Part shown: in pieces, positions 27,287-57,010 of the stretch
Layout of the letters: each line of letters begins with the position of its first letter
Position numbering within the stretch: the stretch's first letter is position 1
Source of the DNA: Mageeibacillus sp.
Lineage (GTDB): Bacteria; Bacillota; Clostridia; Saccharofermentanales; Saccharofermentanaceae
Assembly (NCBI GenBank): GCA_022484595.1
Contig: JAKVLB010000007.1
Location: 1 to 64,000 of the forward strand
Length of the DNA stretch: 64,000 bases
Reading direction: 5' to 3'
Notes under the pieces: generated by a model
The model's database searches: none
Told to the model about the DNA's origin: nothing
Seen by the model: the letters and a program-made list of their open reading frames with translations, nothing else
Made by a program: the position numbers and the translations under genes

Positions 27287-28032
27287 ATGTTATTAGAAGG
27301 AAAAACAGCTTTTATTACCGGAACCAATCGTGGAATTGGATTTGCTCTGGTGGAGAAATTTTCCCAAGAAGGCGCAACAGTCATTGCCCATGCACGCAAA
27401 ACTAATGCTGAACATGAGGACAATTTATTGAAAATTTCCAACAAATATAATAATTCTATAATTCCTGTTTATTTTGATATGCAAGATATTGCAGGAATGA
27501 GAGCAGAGGTTAAAGCTGTTCTTTCAAAAGTTGATAATATTGATTTTCTTGTTAATAATGCAGGAGTATCCTCATGGCAGCTTTTCCCCATGACTAAAGT
27601 GCAAACAATCAGAGATGAATTTGAAGTGAATTTGTTTTCACCTATGGAGTTGACACAAATTGTACTGCGAAAAATGATGAAGCAGGGATATGGATCAATA
27701 GTCAATATGCGTTCAATCGCGGCGATAGAGATTTGTCCGGGCAATTGTGCATATGGTGTGTCAAAGGCGGCAGTAAAAATGTGGACAGAGGTCCTTGCTT
27801 CTGAGGTAGGACAATTTGGAATCAGAGTAAATGCAGTTGTTCTTGGTATGACAAATACTGATATGGCACGACAGATTGAAGAAAAAAGCAGGACAAGAGA
27901 TGCTTCGTTCGTGTCTGCCCTAAAGAGATTGGATGAGCCGGAAGAGATTGCAAATGCGGTTATTTTTTGTGTTCTGACAATGCTTCGTTTGTTAATGGAC
28001 ATACGTTAGTTGTTAATGGTGGGGAGACATAA
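27287..28032 (+). pseudogene. SDR-family oxidoreductase, frameshifted near the 3' end
   Basis: Classical SDR: GTNRGIGFALVEKF (NADP loop), NNAGVSSW, and YGVSK (YxxxK). The ORF ends abnormally as VLTMLRLLMDIR, but the other frame gives SDNASFVNGHTLVVNGGET and a stop, the standard SDR C-terminus. Seven T in place of six near 27963 would join them as VIFLCSDNAS. So about 18 C-terminal residues are out of frame. The start ATG is the second of two tandem ATGs, five bases after GGGAGG. The intact enzyme would reduce a keto group or oxidise an alcohol in the operon's pathway. Confidence 0.82.
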
Positions 28033-28036
28033 CGAA

Positions 28037-28843
28037 ATGAGCAGCAATGAGATTAGAGGTATCTGTAAAAAAATGAGACAGGACTGTCTAATAATGGCAG
28101 ATTCTGCAGGTTCAACAGGATTTCATTTTGGCGGTACTTTTTCGATGATAGAGATTGTTGCTACACTATATTTTAGTGTTATGCATATTGATAAGGATGA
28201 TTTTAATAGTAACAACCGTGACAGACTTATTATAAGCAAAGGACATGGTATACCTGCAGTGTATGCTGCATTAAAGGAAATGGGAGCATTAACTGAAGAG
28301 AACTTGAGGACTTATAAGAGCGATGATACGATACTGTACGGTCATCCGGTAATGAATGAGAGTATTGGCATAGAATTCTCAACCGGAAGCCTTGGACAGG
28401 GACTGTCTCAAGGAACAGGTTGTGCATTGGCATTGAAACATTTTAATAATGCTGCACGTGTATACGTCGTGATTGGTGACGGAGAATGTGATGAGGGATC
28501 AATTTGGGAAGCTGCAATGTCAGCTTCAAAGTTCGGTTTGGATAATTTAGTGGTTATAGTTGATAAGAACAAGATTCAGTACGACGGAGATACAGAGAAC
28601 GTAATGCCTCTCCTGTCACTGGAAGACAAATTCAACAGCTTTGGATGGAATGTATGCACCATTGATGGTCATGATATTGATGCATGTGAAACCGCATTTT
28701 CAAACCAATCCGATAAGCCTATGGTGGTTATTGCGAACACAGTTAAAGGAAAAGGCATTTCTTTTATGGAAAACGATCCTGCTTGGCATCATGCAAGAAT
28801 GACAGCAGCACAACGTCTGGCTGCAGTAAAGGAGCTTGAATAA
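28037..28843 (+). CDS. Transketolase, N-terminal (TPP-binding) subunit
   Basis: 268-residue split transketolase subunit. It holds the TPP pyrophosphate motif GDGECDEGSIWEAAMSASK with DKNKIQYDG, and the active-site blocks SKGHGIPAVYAAL and STGSLGQGLSQGTG. The start MSSNEIRGI follows GGGGAGA; the ORF-track start is upstream in the SDR tail. Split transketolases are common in metabolism, but here the pair lies inside an acyl-activation and glycosylation operon, so it probably serves a special substrate rather than the pentose phosphate pathway. It pairs with the next gene. Confidence 0.92.
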   Translation: MSSNEIRGICKKMRQDCLIMADSAGSTGFHFGGTFSMIEIVATLYFSVMHIDKDDFNSNNRDRLIISKGHGIPAVYAALKEMGALTEENLRTYKSDDTILYGHPVMNESIGIEFSTGSLGQGLSQGTGCALALKHFNNAARVYVVIGDGECDEGSIWEAAMSASKFGLDNLVVIVDKNKIQYDGDTENVMPLLSLEDKFNSFGWNVCTIDGHDIDACETAFSNQSDKPMVVIANTVKGKGISFMENDPAWHHARMTAAQRLAAVKELE

Positions 28844-28844
28844 C

Positions 28845-29816
28845 ATGGAATTCAACAAAATGAATATTCGTACATGGTCTATGCTTGGTCCTTCAGGCGC
28901 ATTTGGTTTAGCTGCATGTGAGCTGGCAAAGAATGATAAGGATTTTGCAGTTCTAACAGCGGATTTGTGTAATTTCTCTGGTTTGGATAGATTTGCAAAA
29001 AATTACCCCCAACAGTTTTATAATATAGGTATTGCTGAACAGAATATGATTGGCGTGGCTGCAGGAATGACAAAGGAGGGAATGAACACATTTGTAACAA
29101 CATATGCATCTTTCATATCTACACGAGTTATGGATCAAGTAAAAGTCAATTTAGGATATATGGGACTCCCTGTTAAACTTGTAGGTTTAACTTCTGGATT
29201 CTCAGCAGGGATACTTGGCGCAACGCACATGGCACTGGAGGATATTGCTATTATTCGAGCTATCCCTAATATAGTGATTTTGTCACCGGCAGATGCTGCT
29301 GAAACAATGAAATCTGTTTTGGCTGCTGCGCAGTTGAGTGTACCAGTGTATATTAGAATGAGCGGGGCGTCAAGGTCACCTGTATTACATAATGGAGATT
29401 TTGATTTTGAAATTGGAAAGGCAATCAGGCTTAAGGATGGCAAAGATATCGCTATCTTTGCTACTGGCACTATGGTAAGTGAAGCAATGACAGTTGCCGA
29501 TAGATTCAGCGACATTGGCATCTCGTGTGAGGTTACTGATATACATACCATAAAGCCAATAGATTATGAAGCGATTGGAAAAGCATGTAGTAAGAAACTA
29601 ATCGTTACTGTTGAAGAACATAGCAGAATCGGAGGTTTAGGCTCTACGGTCGCTGAAGTATTAGCACCGATTAGTTGCGTTCCGCCACAGCTGCTAATAG
29701 GGACGGATGATACATACTTGCATGCTGCTTCATATAGTACGCTTATGGAACGTAGCGGGTTAACAGCAGAGCAAATATATAATCAGATTTTTAAATTTTA
29801 TAAGGAGAACATATAA
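28845..29816 (+). CDS. Transketolase, C-terminal (Pyr plus C-terminal) subunit
   Basis: 323 residues. The pyrimidine-binding domain includes YNIGIAEQNMIGVAAGM, where the glutamate activates TPP, and TTYASFISTRVMDQVKVN; the C-terminal domain includes VEEHSRIGGLGSTVAEVL. Begins at ATG, after AAAGGAG in the end of the partner gene. Together the two subunits would move a two-carbon ketol unit onto an aldehyde acceptor. The LuxC-like reductase encoded downstream would make an aldehyde, so a shared path is plausible but unproven. Confidence 0.92.
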   Translation: MEFNKMNIRTWSMLGPSGAFGLAACELAKNDKDFAVLTADLCNFSGLDRFAKNYPQQFYNIGIAEQNMIGVAAGMTKEGMNTFVTTYASFISTRVMDQVKVNLGYMGLPVKLVGLTSGFSAGILGATHMALEDIAIIRAIPNIVILSPADAAETMKSVLAAAQLSVPVYIRMSGASRSPVLHNGDFDFEIGKAIRLKDGKDIAIFATGTMVSEAMTVADRFSDIGISCEVTDIHTIKPIDYEAIGKACSKKLIVTVEEHSRIGGLGSTVAEVLAPISCVPPQLLIGTDDTYLHAASYSTLMERSGLTAEQIYNQIFKFYKENI

Positions 29817-29817
29817 C

Positions 29818-30057
29818 ATGACAAACGCAGAGAAGTATACAAACGCATTTACGGAGACTTTTGAAATCTCACCAGAGCAGACGGAAGGTCTTGTTTACAC
29901 TGGAATTCCAGCATGGGATTCAATAGGGCATATGCGCCTTATTGCAGCAATTGAGGATGCCTTTGATATAATGATGGATACTGACGATATCATAGATTTC
30001 AGCTCTTTCGAGAAGGGAAAGGAAATACTCGCTAATAATTATGATTTGGAATTTTGA
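29818..30057 (+). CDS. Acyl carrier protein
   Basis: 79-residue acidic helical protein. The serine in AWDSIGHMRLI (about residue 36) is the expected 4'-phosphopantetheine site (DSxGHM, a common dedicated-ACP variant). It starts one base after the transketolase stop, behind AAGGAG, and overlaps the AMP-ligase gene by 17 bases. Its use as the carrier for an acid activated by that ligase is inferred from the overlap. Confidence 0.92.
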   Translation: MTNAEKYTNAFTETFEISPEQTEGLVYTGIPAWDSIGHMRLIAAIEDAFDIMMDTDDIIDFSSFEKGKEILANNYDLEF

Positions 30058-31456
30058 GCAATTTGCAGATAGAATTGCTCTTACCGATGATGCGGGAGCA
30101 AGTATAAGTTACAGCGAACTTCAGAGTGAAACAGATGCGCTTGCAGGGAAGATCGGCAGGCGGTGTCTTGTATTTTCACTTTGTAGCAATACTATAGATT
30201 CTGTAGTAGGGTATGTGGCATTTGTTAATAACAGAATTGTCCCGGCACTGCTTAACTCGCAACTTGATTCGGGGTTGCTTTTGTCTTTGATTGATACATA
30301 TAAACCATCATATATATGGTTGCCGGATGGAGATTTATCTAAATATAGAAATTTTGAAAAGGTCTTCAGTGGCAGAACTTATTGTCTTTTGAAGACAGGA
30401 TATCCAAATGAATACACACTTCACAGTGATTTAGCACTGTTGCTTACTACATCAGGATCTACTGGCAGTCCTAAATTTGTACGTCAGATGTACAAGAATA
30501 TTGAGATTAACACGAAGCAGATTGTTGATTATCTTCAGTTGGACGAATCAGAGAAACCCATTACTACTCTGCCGATGAATTATACATACGGTTGTTCGAT
30601 AATCAACACACATCTTTTGGTTGGTGCTGAGATACTGTTGACGGACAAGACTTTTTTTCAAAGAGAATTTTGGAATTTCTTTAAGGAGAAAGGGGCAACA
30701 TCATTCGGAGGAGTTCCATATACTTATGAGATGCTTGAGAAACTCAGATTTTTTAGAATGAAATTGCCTTCGCTGCGTTCTATGACGCAGGCAGGCGGGA
30801 AACTTGATCCGGAACTTCACAAGAAATTTGCTGAGTATGCTATTGAGAACAATAAGCACTTTGTTGTTATGTACGGAGCGTGTGAAGCAACGGCAAGAAT
30901 GGGGTATCTGCCTTATGATAAGGCACTTGTGAAAATAGGCAGTATGGGAATACCAGTTCCTGGCGGTAAATTTGCAATTATTGATACCGAGAATAATGAA
31001 ATCAAAGATGCTGGTATCGCAGGAGAACTTGTATACAGTGGCGATAATGTCACTATGGGGTATGCAGTTTGCGGCGATGATCTTGCAAGAGGAGATGAAC
31101 GTGGCGGAATTCTTCATACAGGAGATGTGGCTAAACGTGACGATGATGGATATTATTATATTGTTGGTAGATTGAAGCGTTTTCTCAAGATATATGGAAA
31201 CAGAGTGAATCTTGATGAAATAGAACAATTAATCAAATCACAATTTGATTGTTTGAATTGTGCAGTAGGTGGAGTAGATGATCTTGTTTATATTTTTATT
31301 ACTGATAGTGTAAAGGCTGATGCTGTAAGAAAATATATATCAGAGAAGACTGTACTCAATGTAGCTGCATTTAAGATTGTTACTCTGGATAGTATTCCAA
31401 AGAGTGATTCTGGAAAGACGTTATACAGGGAACTCGAAAAGTATTACAGTAAATAG
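30041..31456 (+). CDS. AMP-forming acyl-acid ligase (adenylating enzyme)
   Basis: 471-residue ANL-superfamily enzyme. The P-loop is LLTTSGSTGSPKFVRQ (about residue 140), followed by TYGCSI, YGACEATARMGYLP (A5-like), LHTGDVAKRDDDGYYYIVGR (A7-A8) and the C-terminal lysine in PKSDSGKTLYREL (A10). It would make an acyl adenylate and load it on the overlapping ACP. The acid is not predictable from the sequence. It is somewhat shorter than typical acyl-CoA synthetases and has no extra domain. Confidence 0.9.
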   Translation: MIWNFEQFADRIALTDDAGASISYSELQSETDALAGKIGRRCLVFSLCSNTIDSVVGYVAFVNNRIVPALLNSQLDSGLLLSLIDTYKPSYIWLPDGDLSKYRNFEKVFSGRTYCLLKTGYPNEYTLHSDLALLLTTSGSTGSPKFVRQMYKNIEINTKQIVDYLQLDESEKPITTLPMNYTYGCSIINTHLLVGAEILLTDKTFFQREFWNFFKEKGATSFGGVPYTYEMLEKLRFFRMKLPSLRSMTQAGGKLDPELHKKFAEYAIENNKHFVVMYGACEATARMGYLPYDKALVKIGSMGIPVPGGKFAIIDTENNEIKDAGIAGELVYSGDNVTMGYAVCGDDLARGDERGGILHTGDVAKRDDDGYYYIVGRLKRFLKIYGNRVNLDEIEQLIKSQFDCLNCAVGGVDDLVYIFITDSVKADAVRKYISEKTVLNVAAFKIVTLDSIPKSDSGKTLYRELEKYYSK

Positions 31457-31469
31457 GAGTTGAATTAAG

Positions 31470-32561
31470 TTGGATTATAAAGATATATTGGAAATCTCAC
31501 CATATTCTTTGAATAGAATAGAGAAAGGACGACTTCTAACCGATAGGTTGAAAGAACTCAGCTCGTATCATATGGAGAACTGCCTTGAATACAGAGCTAT
31601 GATGAAGAGTATCAACTTTGATTCAGAAAGAATTGAATCATATTATGATATTCCGTTTCTTCCTGTGAGGCTATTCAAAGAGATGGAACTCAAAAGCGTG
31701 ACGGATGGAGATGTATTTAAAGTGATAACGTCATCTGGAACGACAGGACAGGCTGTATCAAAGATATATCTTGACAGGTTGACATCTAGCAATCAGCAGA
31801 AAACACTAGTAAAAATTGTTTCATCTTTCACGGGAGCAGCAAGGATGCCAATGTTGATTATTGATTGTCCTTCTGTTGTGAAGAATCGACTGATGTTTTC
31901 AGCGAGAGGTGCAGGCATACTTGGTTTTTCAATCTTTGGACGAGATGTAACCTATGCACTTGATGATGATATGAATCTAAACGTAGAAGGAGTGTTGGAA
32001 TTTCTCGAGAATCACAAAGGAGAGAATATTCTAATGTTCGGTTTTACTTTTATAATATGGCAGCACTTTTATAAGGAATTGTTGCGTCTCAGAGAGGATA
32101 AGATAGAATTTGATTTTTCAAAGGGAATACTGATACATGGTGGCGGTTGGAAAAAACTTGTGACTGAAGCGGTATCTCAGCAAGATTTTCATAACAGGCT
32201 TCATGAAGTCTGTGGTTTGGATTCGATTCATGACTATTATGGTATGGTAGAGCAGACAGGCTGTATTTATATGCAGTGCGAATATGGGCATCTGCATGCA
32301 AGTGTTTTTTCTGATATTATTACGCGAAGAGCAGGTGACTTCTCAGTATGTGATTATGGTGAACCAGGCATAATACAGGTGCTTTCTATGATACCTCATT
32401 CATATCCGGGACATTCATTACTTACTGAGGATGAAGGAGTTGTGCTTGGCGAAGATGATTGTCCTTGTGGCAGAAAAGGGAAGTACTTCAAAGTTATTGG
32501 AAGGCTCAAGAATGCTGAAATAAGGGGGTGTAGTGATACCTATGCAGCAAAATTTAAATGA
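31470..32561 (+). CDS. LuxE-like acyl-protein synthetase
   Basis: 363 residues starting at TTG behind TAGGAG. It has the LuxE fold signatures: IPFLPVRLFKE, the nucleotide motif TSSGTTGQAVSKI (about residue 88), DCPSVV and the Cys/His-rich end CPCGRKGKYFKVIGRLKNAEIRGCSD. In luminous bacteria LuxE activates a fatty acid and hands it to LuxC. Here the following LuxC-like gene overlaps by 29 bases, so a LuxE-LuxC complex is likely. No luciferase genes (luxAB) are in the window, so light emission is not suggested. Confidence 0.9.
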   Translation: MDYKDILEISPYSLNRIEKGRLLTDRLKELSSYHMENCLEYRAMMKSINFDSERIESYYDIPFLPVRLFKEMELKSVTDGDVFKVITSSGTTGQAVSKIYLDRLTSSNQQKTLVKIVSSFTGAARMPMLIIDCPSVVKNRLMFSARGAGILGFSIFGRDVTYALDDDMNLNVEGVLEFLENHKGENILMFGFTFIIWQHFYKELLRLREDKIEFDFSKGILIHGGGWKKLVTEAVSQQDFHNRLHEVCGLDSIHDYYGMVEQTGCIYMQCEYGHLHASVFSDIITRRAGDFSVCDYGEPGIIQVLSMIPHSYPGHSLLTEDEGVVLGEDDCPCGRKGKYFKVIGRLKNAEIRGCSDTYAAKFK

Positions 32562-33750
32562 TATTTCTGTGCTTCCGATAGATTTCTATTCAGGGAGTCG
32601 AGAGATTATAGCGGGAATGAATGAGATAAATTCTATGGAAACGTTTTCAGATGAAATTATTGATTTCATGAATAGCGTTTCAAGAGAAATACTGGCAGAT
32701 GTTTCAGCACGAGAATTCCCGGATGTAATTACTCTGGCATTCTGGTTGAGGAAAGCTTCGATTATGAAACAGAAGGAGCGCTTTGTTGTTTCAACGAAAG
32801 CTATCCGTCGAGGTCGTGGTATCGTGCTTCATATTGCACCTTCGAATGTTCCTGTGAACTACGCATATTCACTGTTTACAGGCCTTGTCTGCGGGAATGC
32901 GAATATCGTTAGGATTCCGACAAAGAATTTTCCGCAGGTAGAATTGATTAATTGCGCAATCAATAAAGCTCTTGAGAATCATGAGAATATAAAACCATAT
33001 ATTGCTCTAATAAAATATGGTCATAGTGCTGAGACAAACAGGTATTTATCGTCTATTGCAGACGTGAGAGTTATTTGGGGCGGAGATGAAACTATCAGGG
33101 AGATTCGAGAGTTTTCACTAAAACCAAGAGCTACAGAGATTACGTTCGCAGATCGTTATTCACTTGCTGTTATTGATTCGGATACATACATGGCTATGGA
33201 TAATAAAGATAGAATTGCTAATGATTTTTACAATGATACATTTCTTACCGATCAGAATGCCTGTACTTCACCAAGAGCAGTGATTTGGATTGGCAAGAGA
33301 AAGAAAGAGGCACAAGATGTCTTTTGGAGTGAGCTCCACTCAATTGTTGAGAAGAAGTATGAGCTTCAGGGTGTTCAGGCAGTAAACAAACTGACAAGTG
33401 GTTATTTACTGGCAGTTGATCGTAGCTGCCACAGAATTCCTATGGCGGATAATCTTATAGTTAGAATGAAGGTGGAAAAGCTTGACAGTGAGATTATGAA
33501 CCTCAAGGATAATTCAGGATATTTTTTCGAGTATGATTGTAATAATGTTGTGGATATGCGTGAAGTTTGTAATAATGAGCGTTGTCAGACGATATCATAT
33601 ATAGGAAATACAGAAGTCCTCTTGCCACTTATCAGAAGTGGCATAAAAGGTGTAGATAGAATAGTCGAGATAGGAAAGTCTATGAATTTTGATTTTATAT
33701 GGGATGGATATGACTTGGTTGAAAGACTGACGAGATATACTACCTATTGA
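32533..33750 (+). CDS. LuxC-like acyl-CoA/acyl-protein reductase
   Basis: 405-residue member of the LuxC aldehyde dehydrogenase-like family. Features: RGIVLHIAPSNVPVNYAYSLFTGLVCGNANIVRIP (NADP and substrate region), VIWGGDETIREIR, and the catalytic cysteine in DQNACTSPRAVIW (about residue 240). It reduces an activated acyl group to the aldehyde. Start is GTG close to AGGGGG, or the ATG three codons later. It is last in the operon and is followed by a terminator. Confidence 0.9.
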   Translation: MIPMQQNLNDISVLPIDFYSGSREIIAGMNEINSMETFSDEIIDFMNSVSREILADVSAREFPDVITLAFWLRKASIMKQKERFVVSTKAIRRGRGIVLHIAPSNVPVNYAYSLFTGLVCGNANIVRIPTKNFPQVELINCAINKALENHENIKPYIALIKYGHSAETNRYLSSIADVRVIWGGDETIREIREFSLKPRATEITFADRYSLAVIDSDTYMAMDNKDRIANDFYNDTFLTDQNACTSPRAVIWIGKRKKEAQDVFWSELHSIVEKKYELQGVQAVNKLTSGYLLAVDRSCHRIPMADNLIVRMKVEKLDSEIMNLKDNSGYFFEYDCNNVVDMREVCNNERCQTISYIGNTEVLLPLIRSGIKGVDRIVEIGKSMNFDFIWDGYDLVERLTRYTTY

Positions 33751-33935: not shown

Positions 33936-35612
33936 TCAGCGGGAGACGAGGCTATAGTATGTCTGCGCACGGCTGAGCGCGCTTGCGGCATCGGCAACAT
34001 ACTGGTTGAACGCGGTCTTGTATGCTGAAGGCGTCATCGAGTTGGCGGCGCTGATGCTGCCAAACATTTCCTCGGCCACGTTAGACATGTATCCGGTCTC
34101 ACTGAATGACGCAAAGGCAAATCCTGACTGAGTGTAAACCGGATTGATGATGTTCACATAATGTCCGCCTTTGCTGGCCTTCTCGTCGGTGTACCAGCCG
34201 GTGAACGGATCGGCGTAGCCCCAGGCGAGGTTCTCTGCGCGATAGCCGCCAAGGTCTGAGAAATAGCCGTTGTGGAACGCAATGTGGTCATATGTCTTGG
34301 ACGATATGACAGCTGAACCTATGGACGCTGCCATAAGTGCCGAGTTGACCTGAAGAGGAGCAATACCTTCTGATGCGCGAAGGCTGTTGCACTCTGCGAT
34401 ATAGTCCACCGATTTGTTGATGTTGTCTGCCGTCAGGAATCTTGTGTAGATGCTTAAGTCAGTTCCCGGAACCAGATTGTCTGAAGCTGCTTTGTTCACG
34501 TAGTATTCAACAGTGTGACCGCCGGCTGCAGTTGACTGAGTATCGATCCAGTCGAGAACGACCTCGTTGTAATGCTTCTGTGCGTCAGCAAGTGCTGCGG
34601 CAGCTGCGTCTGCGGTGGACTTGTCTATGAACGAAAGTGAGACAGAGCCGGGAGCGGAGGAGCCTTTGGCTACGAGCTCTATCTGGATTGCCTCGAGACG
34701 GTATGAGAAACCTGATGTGCCCGCGCTCGCACCGTTGCAGGCCCAGTCGAGCCAGCCGAAATTCTGAGAGTGAACGCGGTAGTAGATGTCGTAATGATCA
34801 GCTATATCGCCGGTGAGCTTTATCTGGATTGCCTCAAGCCGTTTACCTTCGCCCTGTGTTCCGGAAAGCGTGCCGTCTGATACCCAGTCCTGCCAGCCGT
34901 AGTCCTGAACGTGTGTTTTGTAAGAGATTGACCCTTTGTATGCCGCGCCTGTGAGAGCGATTGAAATTGCTTCAAGTCTCTTGGAGCTCCCGGTTGTGCC
35001 GGATACAGCGCCGTCGGCAGACCACGCCGATTCCCAGCCGTAATCCTGGCAATGGACGCGGTATGCTACGCCTTCGTTGCTGCTGTATCCTATCGGGACT
35101 ATCTTTATCTGGACTTCTTCAAGCCTTTTGGATTCGCCTGTGGTTCCGGCAAGCGCACCGTCTGAGACCCATCCCTGTGCGTCGCCGTAGTCCTGTATGT
35201 GGACGTGGTACATTATTGTATAGTGGTTTGCGAGTTCACCTGTCAGGCGCATTCTCAGTCCTTCGAGTCTTAAACTTTGATGCGATGTACCGGCAGTCTC
35301 TCCTGCATTCACCCAGTTCATCCATCCTATATTCTGAACGTGCACCTGGTATTGGATTGTTCCGTCATATCCGAGCTGATTGTCAAAATTTACGCATATA
35401 GATTCTACGCGCTTGCTGTTTCCCCGGGTTCCGAGTGTTAAGGTACCCGACGAAAATGAGCCTTCAGTGTCCCCGTAATCCTGGACATGCGCTGTACCGT
35501 TAAGAGTGTAGGAAGCGCCAGCCGAAGCTGTGTTAGGAATCGCGGTGGCGATTGAGAAAGCCATTACTGCGGATATGCAGGCCGACAGTATTTTCTGTAG
35601 TGTTTTATTCAT
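33936..35612 (-). CDS. Secreted ChW-repeat and CAP-domain protein
   Basis: 558-residue exported protein. The start MNKTLQKILSACISAVMAFSIA follows AAAGGAGGGG, which rules out the ORF-track start nine codons earlier; a signal peptide ends near NTASAGA. Six ChW-type repeats of about 45 residues occupy about residues 35 to 310 (VHIQDYG, W, G, GTTGxSKRLExxxI), the first without the central Trp. After a helical linker, a CAP/SCP-like domain (about 410 to 510) includes LRASEGIAPL, DHIAFHNGYF and AENLAWG. ChW repeats are typical of clostridial surface proteins; CAP proteins vary in role. It is divergent from the phosphoglycerol transferase gene. Confidence 0.9.
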   Translation of the reverse strand: MNKTLQKILSACISAVMAFSIATAIPNTASAGASYTLNGTAHVQDYGDTEGSFSSGTLTLGTRGNSKRVESICVNFDNQLGYDGTIQYQVHVQNIGWMNWVNAGETAGTSHQSLRLEGLRMRLTGELANHYTIMYHVHIQDYGDAQGWVSDGALAGTTGESKRLEEVQIKIVPIGYSSNEGVAYRVHCQDYGWESAWSADGAVSGTTGSSKRLEAISIALTGAAYKGSISYKTHVQDYGWQDWVSDGTLSGTQGEGKRLEAIQIKLTGDIADHYDIYYRVHSQNFGWLDWACNGASAGTSGFSYRLEAIQIELVAKGSSAPGSVSLSFIDKSTADAAAAALADAQKHYNEVVLDWIDTQSTAAGGHTVEYYVNKAASDNLVPGTDLSIYTRFLTADNINKSVDYIAECNSLRASEGIAPLQVNSALMAASIGSAVISSKTYDHIAFHNGYFSDLGGYRAENLAWGYADPFTGWYTDEKASKGGHYVNIINPVYTQSGFAFASFSETGYMSNVAEEMFGSISAANSMTPSAYKTAFNQYVADAASALSRAQTYYSLVSR

Positions 35613-35738
35613 GGTCAACCCCTCCTTTGAATATATCAAATGATAGCCTTTAGTGAGACATTTTTCTATGGTTTGTTAGCAAATTTCACATAAAAATAAA
35701 AAAAAAATCCAAATAAATCTGTATAAAGCCCAAGGAAA

Positions 35739-38513
35739 TTGAAAATTTACAGGCGTATTATACTCGATTGTATGAAACGCATAGTTCACATCTTTCTATA
35801 TTTTCTTCTGGCAGCGGCTGTTTTCGGCCTCCTTCTTGCGTCATTTGCAATGATCTGGACAATGGATGTCTGGAGACATATTACTTTCGATGAGATTATT
35901 TATCATCTGTCCGCGCCTATTGAAGGAACCAATCCCAGTGTAATACTGAGCTTTGTTTTGAGAAATCTTATTCCCGCTGCAGTTGTGGGACTTGGATTAT
36001 GGGGACTTAATATAGTTAATATATTAAAGAGAATCAAGAAAGCTAAACTCGTTAAGCAGATAAATGCCATAGCAGTAATTGTTTCTGTGGCGGTAATCGT
36101 TGTTGTTGCGGCACTTTTTATAAACAAGTATGACGCAATCGGGTATTACAAGGCTATGAACGAGAATTCGGATTTTGTCAAGGATAACTACGTGAAGCCG
36201 ACTGATGTTGATATTCAGTTTCCTGAGAAGAAGCGCAATGTTGTTTATATTTTTCTGGAGTCGATGGAGATGTCATATGCTGATAAGTCCGTCGGAGGCG
36301 CATTTGATGAGAATTACATCCCGGAGCTTACGGATCTGGCGCTTGGTGATAACGCCGAGTGCTTCGCCGGCAATGATGAGACGCTGAACGGCGCGGTGCC
36401 TATGCATGGAGCTACGTTCACATCCGGTGCCATGGTGGCGCAGACTTCCGGACTTCCGGCAATGGAGGAGATAGGCAACGCTGCGGGAACTCAGTCGAGT
36501 TTCTACCCGGGAGCTACCACAATCGGCGATATCCTGGGAGCTCAGGGCTACAATCAGGAGCTCATGGTTGGTTCGGACGCGGTTTTCGGCGGAAGAGCAC
36601 AGTATTTTTCCGGTCACGGCGGATACAAAATTTTCGATTATAATTACGCGCTTAATAACGGTTATATTCCCGCAGGCTATAAGGTATGGTGGGGATACGA
36701 GGACCAGAAGCTTTTTCAGTTCGCAAAGTCAGAGATACTGGCGCTGGCCGATGAAGATCAGCCTTTCAATTTTACGATGCTGACCGTGGACACACACTTT
36801 GAGGATGGCTATGTATGCCCGCTTTGCAGAGACGAGTGCGGCGACAACCAGTACGGCAACGTTATGCACTGCTCTTCACGTCAGGTTACAGAGTTCGTTG
36901 CATGGCTTCAGCAGCAGGATTTCTATGACAACACGACTATTGTCATTTGCGGCGACCACACAACGATGGATTCGAATTTCTGCTCCAGTGTGGATGATGG
37001 TTTCCTCAGACGCACATATATGACGATTCTTAATTCTGCCGCGACATGTGACAGTACCGAGCAGCGTCTTTATTCTACTTTTGACATGTTTCCTACGACG
37101 CTCGCGGCTATGGGCTGCCAGATTGAAGGCGACCGCCTCGGACTTGGAGTGAATCTGTATTCCGGGCAGAAGACGCTGCTCGAACAGTATGGCATTCAGT
37201 ATGTAAATACGGAGCTGTCGAAAAACTCCGACTTTATAAAGAACGATATCGCAGGTTATAAGTCCTTTGACGAGGCGGTTTTTGAGACAAATGCCGTTCT
37301 TGACACAAAGTACACGCCTGTCGTCGATGACGGCAAATTTACGGGTGTCGAATTCTCACTGTCGGGTCTCGAGACTACGGATGAACCCATACAGGCGATT
37401 CAACTGGATGTGTCAACACCGGGAGGGACATGGTCAACATCTTCACAGATGCAGCGAAATGAAGATCTTTCCTACTCAACTGTGTTCAGCGTCGACGGGC
37501 TTACTGACAGACAGCTTCTTAACCTGACGGTTACAGTAACAGATTCCAACGGAGATCAATATGAGATCTACAAAGATACGGGCTACCTGGGTAATATTTT
37601 TCACTACCTGCACTATGACATAAACGAGTACATAGACTCGGTGATGAATCTTGATAACGTGGTAGTTTTCGCCGCCGCATGCGACGACTGTTCGGGTGCA
37701 ATTTCGGATTCTACACTTGAGCTGCTGAGGGAACACGGTCTCGAAGCCAAATTCGACGAATCTGAGGGACTAAGCTGGTACGGAGTTGTGGCAAACGGTC
37801 ATGCCGAGCACGAAGATTGTTCAGACAGTCTTTTAAGTTACGGAGGAAGTCTGCCAAACGGCGATTTCTTCAGTCTTGAGAGCCTCGGAAGTGCCGGAGT
37901 TGCGGCGCAGATTGCCGCTCAGACCGAGAGTGTCCGCGAGAATGAGTCCATCGGGAATGAGAGCAACTCTCTTGTTAACGGAGTCGTCGATACGTTCCCG
38001 CAGGTAGCGGCCGTTACCAACGATGTTTTGGATGGCGATGTTCCGAAGCCGATGAGTTCTATAGTCGTAAACGGCAAAGAATACTCACCCAGCAACCGCG
38101 GTCTGCTTTTCGTTGTGTATGATCTCAATGAGGGCTGCGTGATTGATGCTGCTTCGTTCGATACGGCGCGCGACAGTTTCACCGGTGAGCAGTCAAAGGG
38201 TACTCTGGACTACGAGATATCTTCGTTCATGGGTTCTTCGAGACTTTCAGTGTCAGTGTCTGATATTGCGAGCCTTATTAACCTCAACAATACAGGAACC
38301 GCGGATCTTTATATCTGGGACGCCTCGACGATTGATACGCCGAAGCACTACGCACTGTCACTTGAGAACGGAAGCAACGGATACACTTATACCAAATCGG
38401 TGGATATCGATGATCTTGATCTGAGCACTGCGCATATGTCGATTTATATCAAGAAGGCCGGCGGAAGAATTCTGCTGAGATACAATGTACCGATCACATC
38501 AACTCAGAATTAA
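35739..38513 (+). CDS. OpgB/LtaS-like phosphoglycerol transferase with C-terminal extension (copy 1)
   Basis: 924 residues. Three N-terminal membrane helices lead to an extracellular alkaline-phosphatase-fold domain. The metal and nucleophile motifs are IFLESMEMSYAD (about 170), ATFTSGAMVAQTSGLP (about 230, with the nucleophile Thr) and VICGDHTTMDSN (about 403). GAMVAQTSGLP and DTHFEDGY look most like OpgB/MdoB, which transfers phosphoglycerol. After about residue 530 come a beta-sandwich and two blocks resembling halves of an ILEI/FAM3 domain (VVVFAAACDD near 640; GLLFVVYDLNEGCVIDAASFDT near 785). The start may be TTG as given or ATG 11 codons later. It probably decorates the polysaccharide of this locus. 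Confidence 0.85.
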   Translation: MKIYRRIILDCMKRIVHIFLYFLLAAAVFGLLLASFAMIWTMDVWRHITFDEIIYHLSAPIEGTNPSVILSFVLRNLIPAAVVGLGLWGLNIVNILKRIKKAKLVKQINAIAVIVSVAVIVVVAALFINKYDAIGYYKAMNENSDFVKDNYVKPTDVDIQFPEKKRNVVYIFLESMEMSYADKSVGGAFDENYIPELTDLALGDNAECFAGNDETLNGAVPMHGATFTSGAMVAQTSGLPAMEEIGNAAGTQSSFYPGATTIGDILGAQGYNQELMVGSDAVFGGRAQYFSGHGGYKIFDYNYALNNGYIPAGYKVWWGYEDQKLFQFAKSEILALADEDQPFNFTMLTVDTHFEDGYVCPLCRDECGDNQYGNVMHCSSRQVTEFVAWLQQQDFYDNTTIVICGDHTTMDSNFCSSVDDGFLRRTYMTILNSAATCDSTEQRLYSTFDMFPTTLAAMGCQIEGDRLGLGVNLYSGQKTLLEQYGIQYVNTELSKNSDFIKNDIAGYKSFDEAVFETNAVLDTKYTPVVDDGKFTGVEFSLSGLETTDEPIQAIQLDVSTPGGTWSTSSQMQRNEDLSYSTVFSVDGLTDRQLLNLTVTVTDSNGDQYEIYKDTGYLGNIFHYLHYDINEYIDSVMNLDNVVVFAAACDDCSGAISDSTLELLREHGLEAKFDESEGLSWYGVVANGHAEHEDCSDSLLSYGGSLPNGDFFSLESLGSAGVAAQIAAQTESVRENESIGNESNSLVNGVVDTFPQVAAVTNDVLDGDVPKPMSSIVVNGKEYSPSNRGLLFVVYDLNEGCVIDAASFDTARDSFTGEQSKGTLDYEISSFMGSSRLSVSVSDIASLINLNNTGTADLYIWDASTIDTPKHYALSLENGSNGYTYTKSVDIDDLDLSTAHMSIYIKKAGGRILLRYNVPITSTQN

Positions 38514-54375: not shown

Positions 54376-54448
54376 AAGGTACTTCAAGCAAGTATATCAT
54401 TACAGATTTGAATAGAATAAATGCATATTACAAAGGGACGGCACATTG

Positions 54449-57010
54449 ATGGAGAAATATAAGTGTAAAGCACATATAATCTCTACTCATATATTATGTT
54501 TTTTCCTTGTTACAGTATTACTAACGCTGACACTTACTTTATTCTGGACGATGAGAATCTGGAAAACAATAACATTCTCTGAGATTGCTTATTATCTGAC
54601 ATCCAATATAGAAGGAACAAACTCCGATGTAATTAACAGCTTTTTTATGCAAAACCTTTTGCCATCAGTAATCATTGCGGCTGTTTGGGCTATTTTAAGA
54701 ATAGTCTGGATAAGATATGGACACAATGCAAAGCTGTTTACTGCAGCAACATTTGTTTTAGTTTCCGTTTTATTTGTCTGTTCATTGATTATATTTACTA
54801 TAAAATACCGGGTAATCGATTACATCAAGAACTGTGGTGAGAATTCTGATTTCGTTGAACAGGTATATGTTGATCCTGAACAGACTATTATTACGTTCCC
54901 CGAGAAGAAACGTAACATTATTTATATCTTTCTCGAGTCCATGGAAATGACGTATGCCGATCAAAATGACGGCGGAGCATTTGAATCAAATTGTATTCCG
55001 GGACTGACGGCACTTGCTGAGTCAAATGAATGTTTTTCTGATTCAAATGAAAGTCTTAATGGTGCTTCTACGGTTTATGGATGTACATATACGATGGGAG
55101 GCATGGTGGCACAGACATCAGGGCTTCCGATATTCAGCGGCGTTGGAAATGCAATGGGAACAAAAACAGAGTTTTATCCCGGTGTAACTGCTATCGGCGA
55201 CATACTGGAAGATAATGGCTACAATCAAGAGCTTATGATTGGTTCACCGGCAGAATTTGGCGGAAGAAACCAATACTTCAAAGAACACGGTAATTACAAA
55301 ATATTCGATTATGATTATGCTATAGCAAACGGATATATACCTGAAGATTATTCTGTCTGGTGGGGTTATGAGGATGCGAAGTTATTCTGCTTTGCCAAAG
55401 AAGAAATTACTAATCTGGCATCGGAAGACGAGCCGTTTAATTTCACTATGCTTACTGCGGATACTCACTTTGAAGACGGCTATTGTTGTGAACTGTGCCA
55501 AGATGAGTTTGACAGCCAATATGCAAATGTTATGGCATGTTCAAGTCAACAGGTTTGTGAGTTTGTAACGTGGATTAAAGAACAGAGCTTCTATGAAGAT
55601 ACGACTGTTGTTATTTGTGGCGATCATTTAACCATGGACTCTGATTTCTGCGATGATGTTGACAGCGATTATCAGAGAAGAACTTATGTAAGTATTATTA
55701 ATTCTGCAGCCGACCTAGAAGATGATGACAACGCAAGACAGTATACAACGCTTGACATGTTTCCTACGACGCTTGCTGCTATGGGGTGTGATATAGATGG
55801 AAACAGACTTGCTCTTGGTGTTAATCTGTATTCATCGTCCCCAACTTTGCTTGAACAATATGGAATCAATTATCTGAATGAAGAGTTATCTAAAAGTTCT
55901 GAATTTGTAAACGAGAATATTGCAAGTATCGATTCTTTTGACACGGATATTATTGCAGCCGGTAATCTATTGAATCTTGTCATAAGTCCAAGTATTTATA
56001 ATTCTGATGGGAAGGTGGAATTATCGCTAAGCGGACTTGAGAACATTGAGTCCGCGATTCAATGTGTCTACGTGGAGATATATGACGAGAATGGAAACCT
56101 TGTGGACACTATGGAAATGGAAAGATACCCCGATCTCACATACAATGCCCTGATTGATTCTTATAAATACAGAGACAGCGAAGATTACATAATGAGATTC
56201 TTTGTTACCGATGAGAGTGATGAGAAACATTTTGTATATTCTTACACATGCAGATTGGGAAATGACTTTTGCTGCTGTCACTCGGATATAAACGCGTATT
56301 TGAGATTACTTCGGCAGACCAAAGACATTGTTATATTTGGAGCAGTAAAGGATGACGCCGCTGTCAGTCTGGGTACATCCACAATCAATTATATGCATTT
56401 ACTTGGTTTCAAGGCAAAATTTGCAGGTTCATATAGATCCGTATGGGTAGGAACTAATTGCAATCAGTACAGCGAACAGATTGGAACAGCAGAAGAGTGC
56501 GTCAGCTTCGGAGGTCATCTTGAGGACGGAACAAAATATTCACTCGTCAGCTCCGGGTATGATAGAGATAATTATTGTTCAATTGCAATTGATGGAGTTG
56601 AATATGCAGTGTGTGAGCGTGGAATTAACCTTGTAATATATGATACTCGTAAAGGCAGAGTAGTTGACAGCGTTGCTTTTGATACATATGGTTCATATAT
56701 GACTTGCGACGAGCAGCCAGGATATCTGATAAACTCCATTCATGGAGAGACTATCGATATTTGTCTGACTGACTTAAAGAGAAATATGAATGTCTCAAAC
56801 ATCAGCGAAGTTTACGCATATATTTGGGATAAGGACACTGAAGGATGTCCAACAAAGGTTTCATTATCTGTTGACAGTAACTTTAATTTTATGTATACAT
56901 GTAGTATTGTTGATATGGACAGACAGTCCATGTACATTTCTGTATATATAAGAGCCAATGGCGGTTGTGTAATTTGGAGAGAAATTCAGAGGGTGAATTA
57001 TGGTAATTAA
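54449..57010 (+). CDS. OpgB/LtaS-like phosphoglycerol transferase with C-terminal extension (copy 2)
   Basis: 853-residue paralogue of the protein at 35739, in AT-richer DNA. Membrane helices at the N-terminus, then IFLESMEMTYAD (about 160), TYTMGGMVAQTSGLP (about 220) and VICGDHLTMDSD (about 388) supply the expected metal and nucleophile residues. The C-terminal extension has DIVIFGAVKDDAAVSLG (about 625) and GVEYAVCERGINLVIYDTRKGRVVDSVAFDT (about 720), which read like the second and first halves of an ILEI/FAM3 domain in swapped order. The ATG after AAGGGACGG is preferred over the TTG one codon earlier. The end overlaps the next gene by 11 bases. Confidence 0.86.
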   Translation: MEKYKCKAHIISTHILCFFLVTVLLTLTLTLFWTMRIWKTITFSEIAYYLTSNIEGTNSDVINSFFMQNLLPSVIIAAVWAILRIVWIRYGHNAKLFTAATFVLVSVLFVCSLIIFTIKYRVIDYIKNCGENSDFVEQVYVDPEQTIITFPEKKRNIIYIFLESMEMTYADQNDGGAFESNCIPGLTALAESNECFSDSNESLNGASTVYGCTYTMGGMVAQTSGLPIFSGVGNAMGTKTEFYPGVTAIGDILEDNGYNQELMIGSPAEFGGRNQYFKEHGNYKIFDYDYAIANGYIPEDYSVWWGYEDAKLFCFAKEEITNLASEDEPFNFTMLTADTHFEDGYCCELCQDEFDSQYANVMACSSQQVCEFVTWIKEQSFYEDTTVVICGDHLTMDSDFCDDVDSDYQRRTYVSIINSAADLEDDDNARQYTTLDMFPTTLAAMGCDIDGNRLALGVNLYSSSPTLLEQYGINYLNEELSKSSEFVNENIASIDSFDTDIIAAGNLLNLVISPSIYNSDGKVELSLSGLENIESAIQCVYVEIYDENGNLVDTMEMERYPDLTYNALIDSYKYRDSEDYIMRFFVTDESDEKHFVYSYTCRLGNDFCCCHSDINAYLRLLRQTKDIVIFGAVKDDAAVSLGTSTINYMHLLGFKAKFAGSYRSVWVGTNCNQYSEQIGTAEECVSFGGHLEDGTKYSLVSSGYDRDNYCSIAIDGVEYAVCERGINLVIYDTRKGRVVDSVAFDTYGSYMTCDEQPGYLINSIHGETIDICLTDLKRNMNVSNISEVYAYIWDKDTEGCPTKVSLSVDSNFNFMYTCSIVDMDRQSMYISVYIRANGGCVIWREIQRVNYGN

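Follow-up and report, generated by a model that had tools for sequence, protein, structure and literature searches.

Evidence for a circularly permuted ILEI/FAM3-type module in OpgB-like membrane proteins of a bacterial polysaccharide locus

The ILEI-type fold is familiar chiefly from human proteins involved in signalling and in muscular dystrophy. A 64,000-nucleotide stretch of Mageeibacillus sp. DNA (hereafter, the window) encodes a 924-residue membrane protein in whose C-terminal part two blocks resembling the halves of an ILEI domain appear in reversed order. This raises the question of whether the region is a circularly permuted domain or a set of shuffled pieces, and of what such a module might do on an enzyme. 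The reading frame lies in a polysaccharide locus that also encodes many glycosyltransferases, a methyltransferase and a Wzt_C-containing ABC exporter. Adjoining it on the opposite strand, at 33936-35639 (-), is a gene whose secreted-type product combines ChW repeats with a CAP domain. Positions 28010-33750, within the polysaccharide locus, hold Transketolase-N, AMP-binding enzyme and acyl-CoA-reductase-like reading frames, possibly a pathway for a special sugar or acyl precursor.

We searched the 924-residue protein against Pfam and NCBIfam. The PF00884 domain was matched with 60.2 bits, and with 64.4 bits in a paralogue encoded in the same window, both above the cut-off of 25. The best NCBIfam models were those of phosphoglycerol transferase I (OpgB). 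Since the scores (159.5 bits for PRK12363, and 130.5 bits) are far under the equivalog cut-offs (572 for PRK12363, 574 for PRK03776), the name "OpgB-like" given to the protein by an earlier, sequence-only reading of the window is right, while identity with OpgB itself is not established. Judged by these matches, the protein belongs to the same superfamily as phosphoglycerol transferase I. Residues E174, T228, D406 and H407 are candidate metal ligands and nucleophile, which we take to be so by the LtaS/OpgB motif. The features of the protein and of its paralogue are as follows.

35739-38513 (+): open reading frame, 924 residues; OpgB-like phosphoglycerol-transferase-family membrane protein with a permuted ILEI module
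35769-36143 (+): N-terminal transmembrane region by hydropathy scan, hydrophobic segments at about residues 11-45, 67-96 and 102-135
36234-37115 (+): sulfatase/LtaS-type catalytic domain, residues 166-459, by Pfam and by sequence match to the LtaS and VP1736 structures
37302-37586 (+): predicted beta-sandwich-like domain, about residues 522-616, from AlphaFold2 secondary structure
37608-38180 (+): permuted ILEI/FAM3-type module, about residues 624-814, scoring 115.8 bits against a profile built from 82 modules
37608-37865 (+): canonical second half, placed first, plus connecting strand (helix, VVVFAAACDD strand, helix, SWYGVVANG strand)
37866-38177 (+): canonical first half, placed second (FFSLESLG, SSIVVNGKEY, RGLLFVVYD and GCVIDAASFDT strands)
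37893-38048 (+): low-confidence insertion of about 52 residues within the first-half block, not in the other modules aligned
38202-38492 (+): predicted C-terminal beta-rich domain, about residues 822-918, from AlphaFold2 secondary structure
54446-57010 (+), ATG at 54449: paralogue of the same architecture, 854 residues, 44% identity to the 924-residue protein
56276-56707 (+): the paralogue's permuted ILEI module (its second half at 56279-56530 and its first at 56534-56713)

Residues 530-924 had been proposed as the unit to be modelled. This delimitation does not hold: the module occupies residues 624-814 or so, and domains predicted to be beta-sandwich-like lie on both sides of it. The insertion at 37893-38048 is rich in Glu, Asn and Val and is missing from the paralogues; several SGNH-like relatives have acidic insertions close to, but not at, this site.

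Within the module, the VVVFAAACDD block (residues 640-650, from nucleotide 37656) comes ahead of the RGLLFVVYDLNEGCVIDAASFDT block (residues 787-809, nucleotides 38097-38165). In both the 924-residue protein and the paralogue the second half of the ILEI domain comes before the first, and the canonical order is not observed. To see what this order does to recognition by the ILEI model (PF15711; length 90, gathering cut-off 27 bits), the module halves were exchanged and the search was repeated. In natural order, Pfam matched the whole 924-residue protein at ILEI positions 1-47 only, at its far end, with 17.3 bits, and the whole paralogue with 26.9 bits, both under the cut-off; the rotated module of the former (insertion removed) gave a contiguous match to positions 1-73 with 32.5 bits, over the cut-off, and that of the latter a contiguous match to positions 1-83 with 39.3 bits, gains that compare a whole protein with a rotated module and are due in part to excision. 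The excised modules in natural order scored 21.2 and 29.7 bits, respectively, each as two pieces. For relatives in which the same module was searched both ways, rotation raised the score from 38.4 to 50.1 bits (L008) and from 38.0 to 47.9 bits (L017). The place of the cut matters: the whole 190-residue module of the 924-residue protein gave 28.7-29.2 bits to ILEI when cut between the halves, and 17.6-21.2 bits in natural order or when cut inside either half. Of 21 rotated diverse modules, 20 matched ILEI at E<=1e-6. The swapped order claimed for the protein, and for the paralogue at 54449 as well, is thus borne out.

A profile was next built from 82 modules and compared, in natural order and rotated, with proteins of solved structure. 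The natural-order profile matched the structures of FAM3A/B/C and of POMGnT1 in two separate stretches, and in the two FAM3B alignments shown these stretches were in reversed order. The rotated profile matched FAM3A/B/C, POMGnT1 and TMEM2 each as a single stretch (E values of 7e-8 for FAM3B, 3e-6 for POMGnT1 and 3e-5 for TMEM2). A mirror-image control was provided by L155, a rare normal-order bacterial ILEI domain in a 227-residue membrane-anchored protein (G636:C25, around 210890-211150). It was matched as one stretch by the rotated profile and as two by the natural-order profile, and therefore the method is able to tell both orders apart. A reading frame neighbouring L155 encodes a membrane protein.

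Structure prediction had been named as a check on the swapped halves. The paralogue module alone, modelled by AlphaFold2 with 82 sequences, is predicted to fold as one compact domain (pLDDT 93.4, pTM 0.89), with a helix-strand-helix followed by seven strands; two unrelated folds, the outcome that would speak against the claim, were not seen. A 459-residue model of the 924-residue protein's own region was of moderate quality (pLDDT 73.8, pTM 0.54), with the module blocks mostly at pLDDT 70-92 and the insertion at low confidence. In a Foldseek search the best PDB match of the paralogue module was the TMEM2 ectodomain, in which an ILEI domain is recognised by sequence; the match is weak (E 0.047, TMq 0.42) because Foldseek keeps chain order. 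Against the PDB and viral models no match of the compact module reached E<0.001, as expected of an order-dependent method and a permuted domain, and matches of the 459-residue model were swamped by multi-Ig proteins.

The same order recurs well beyond the two window copies. A third OpgB-like paralogue with a permuted module lies further along the contig, past the end of the window (G000:C7, about 80068-82677; L146, 16068-18677), and relatives are encoded in 104 contig stretches from GTDB species, including Oscillospiraceae, Lachnospiraceae, Saccharofermentans, Selenomonas, Solobacterium, Treponema and others. The suggestion that the swapped order is no accident is upheld. Among these 104 loci, 80 were read, and all 80 carry the order second half-first half (B-A) and match the natural-order profile. 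DUF58-like and other matches in the ILEI genome search (for example, L021 and L027) were recognised as false positives on reading the proteins. A scan of viral contigs and phage records revealed no relatives; plasmids gave one short match, and PHROGs weak unnamed matches alone.

About ten loci contain tandem copies (L064, L065, L068, L071, L083, L092, L096, L097, L109 and L111). Such B-A-B-A arrangements represent the intermediate through which duplication and loss usually proceed. In L065, the first half of copy 1 and the second half of copy 2 are together taken by Pfam for one normal ILEI domain (whole-protein score 76.7 bits), an arrangement that is the classical intermediate of circular permutation.

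With the module masked, the proteins that carry it fell into seven clusters and single cases with no detectable similarity between them. The clusters are SGNH-like proteins with weak similarity to GDSL hydrolases (31), OpgB-like proteins (17), polysaccharide pyruvyl transferases, mostly with Fe-S and FrhB domains (13), Treponema PMT_2-like proteins (3), GT2/citrate-lyase-ligase proteins (3), CDP-glycerol transferases (2) and GDPD proteins (2); a LicD partner is found by Pfam among the single cases. At least seven kinds of enzyme thus carry the module: OpgB-like, SGNH-like, polysaccharide pyruvyl transferase, CDP-glycerol transferase, LicD, GDPD and GT-C. They are mostly glycopolymer enzymes, acting on either side of the membrane. 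In pyruvyl transferase fusions the module is seen at either protein end (L057, L060, L079, L084, L088, L095 and L113). The module is mobile between enzymes: in a tree of modules, many forks of which are weakly supported, the partner label switches at least 16 times, with exported partners tending to group apart from cytosolic ones.

Three independent tests, i.e. Pfam rotation, natural versus rotated profiles and the single-domain AlphaFold2 model, support circular permutation, and we consider it highly probable that the C-terminal region is a true circular permutation of the ILEI/FAM3/POMGnT1-stem (GG-type lectin) domain. In the permuted module, the helix-strand-helix-strand of the canonical second half would be followed by a short connecting strand and then by the four strands that make up the canonical first half, the three parts closing into one domain. 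The sequence-only reading had left a choice between permutation and domain shuffling, and of these permutation stands. Independent insertion of two half-domains that do not form one ILEI-like fold would account for the separate partial matches given by Pfam in natural order. However, in the 80 loci tested the halves travel as a unit, always ordered alike and closely spaced, and they do so on partners that are unrelated; the rotated sequence fits the canonical profile end to end, and a single confident domain is predicted. Because the rotated match is contiguous and the module folds as one predicted domain, we conclude in favour of permutation and regard shuffling of unrelated pieces as extremely improbable. 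Nor is it at all probable that the likeness is superficial, with some other beta-beta-alpha fold having short motifs in common with ILEI: the failure of Foldseek to give a match at E<0.001 might be read this way, but rotated modules exceed the ILEI gathering cut-off and the rotated profile is contiguous on the three structures with the E values given above.

The direction of the change is a separate matter. Nearly all clear matches among the Bacillota sampled have the permuted order, normal-order bacterial copies being rare, and this preponderance would agree with the bacterial order being ancestral and the FAM3/POMGnT1 order being the permuted one. The existence of the normal-order bacterial copy L155 argues against this, as does a POMGnT1-stem-like carbohydrate-binding module (CBM) described for a phage (PMC9437275), and we find this direction doubtful. 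The occurrence of normal-order and permuted copies in one bacterial class makes the evolution of the permutation testable.

What the permuted domain does on its enzymes can be approached through ligand residues. According to PMC9802357, the POMGnT1 stem binds beta-GlcNAc via Arg129, Asp179 and Arg207, and sugars are bound by FAM3C too; the Arg/Asp pair of the POMGnT1 stem is also present in a CBM from a streptococcal phage tail (PMC9437275). Equivalents of the POMGnT1 residues were assigned from the rotated-profile alignment. The Arg129 equivalent is kept in 76 of the 82 modules (93%), that of Asp179 in 73 (89%) and that of Arg207 in just 26. Both window copies have the Arg129 and Asp179 equivalents. 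The paralogue has all three (R, D, R). The 924-residue protein, whose copy is among the most divergent permuted modules, has Gly at the Arg207 equivalent and Leu where 81 of the 82 modules (99%) have Asn.

Since ligand residues are kept and the locus combines polysaccharide genes with an exporter, the module may hold an exported glycopolymer for the catalytic domain; we regard a glycan-binding, substrate-holding role as the most plausible function and as reasonably probable. On the outer face, the module would keep an exported surface glycopolymer, or a repeat thereof, close to the OpgB-like catalytic domain. That domain would take phosphoglycerol or a similar group from a membrane lipid and transfer it to the held polymer. 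With partners in the cytosol (pyruvyl transferase, LicD, CDP-glycerol transferase), the module would likewise hold the lipid-linked precursor. The poor conservation of Arg207, the greater divergence of the copy in the 924-residue protein and the presence of the module on cytosolic as well as exported enzymes, for which protein-protein contacts could equally account, would fit dimerisation, anchoring or enzyme regulation. Such a role appears less likely, given that the Arg129 and Asp179 equivalents persist in most modules and that the identified partners are mostly glycopolymer enzymes. A wider view, which we put forward tentatively and with slightly more doubt than belief, is that the permuted GG-type lectin domain would serve the assembly of bacterial surface glycopolymers as a general module for substrate recognition, common to unrelated cytosolic and exported enzymes so that they all recognise one polymer, and would have displaced the canonical order in Bacillota.

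The module adds a natural circular permutant to the ILEI/FAM3/POMGnT1 fold and points to an unrecognised mobile module, probably glycan-binding, in gut and rumen bacteria. It is under-annotated because current profile libraries see broken halves. We found no description of a permuted or bacterial ILEI domain in the open-access literature searched.

Compared with ILEI/FAM3/PANDER (PF15711, FAM3A-C), the permuted module has matching strands and helices after rotation, the RGLN, KDD/E and FDT motifs and the equivalents of Arg129 and Asp179. It differs in its reversed halves, in its new ends between FDT and the first helix and in an extra connecting strand that joins the old ends. Like the POMGnT1 stem, it is an accessory domain, in its case a putative glycan-binding one, on an enzyme that modifies a glycan, and keeps two of the three ligand residues; unlike that stem, the bacterial module is permuted, is found on other enzyme classes and does not keep Arg207 in most copies. 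The CBM_1 of the Streptococcus phage TP-778L Tal is also POMGnT1-stem-like, conserves the Arg/Asp pair and represents a use of the fold in the prokaryotic world for binding cell-wall polysaccharide; its authors describe it as superimposing on the POMGnT1 stem, with permutation unmentioned in the part of the source consulted, and belongs to a phage tail, not to an enzyme (PMC9437275). With OpgB/MdoB and LtaS, finally, the 924-residue protein has in common the PF00884 catalytic domain and N-terminal transmembrane segments. It stands far under the OpgB/MdoB equivalog cut-offs, and it differs from all of these enzymes in the addition of C-terminal beta domains and the permuted ILEI module.
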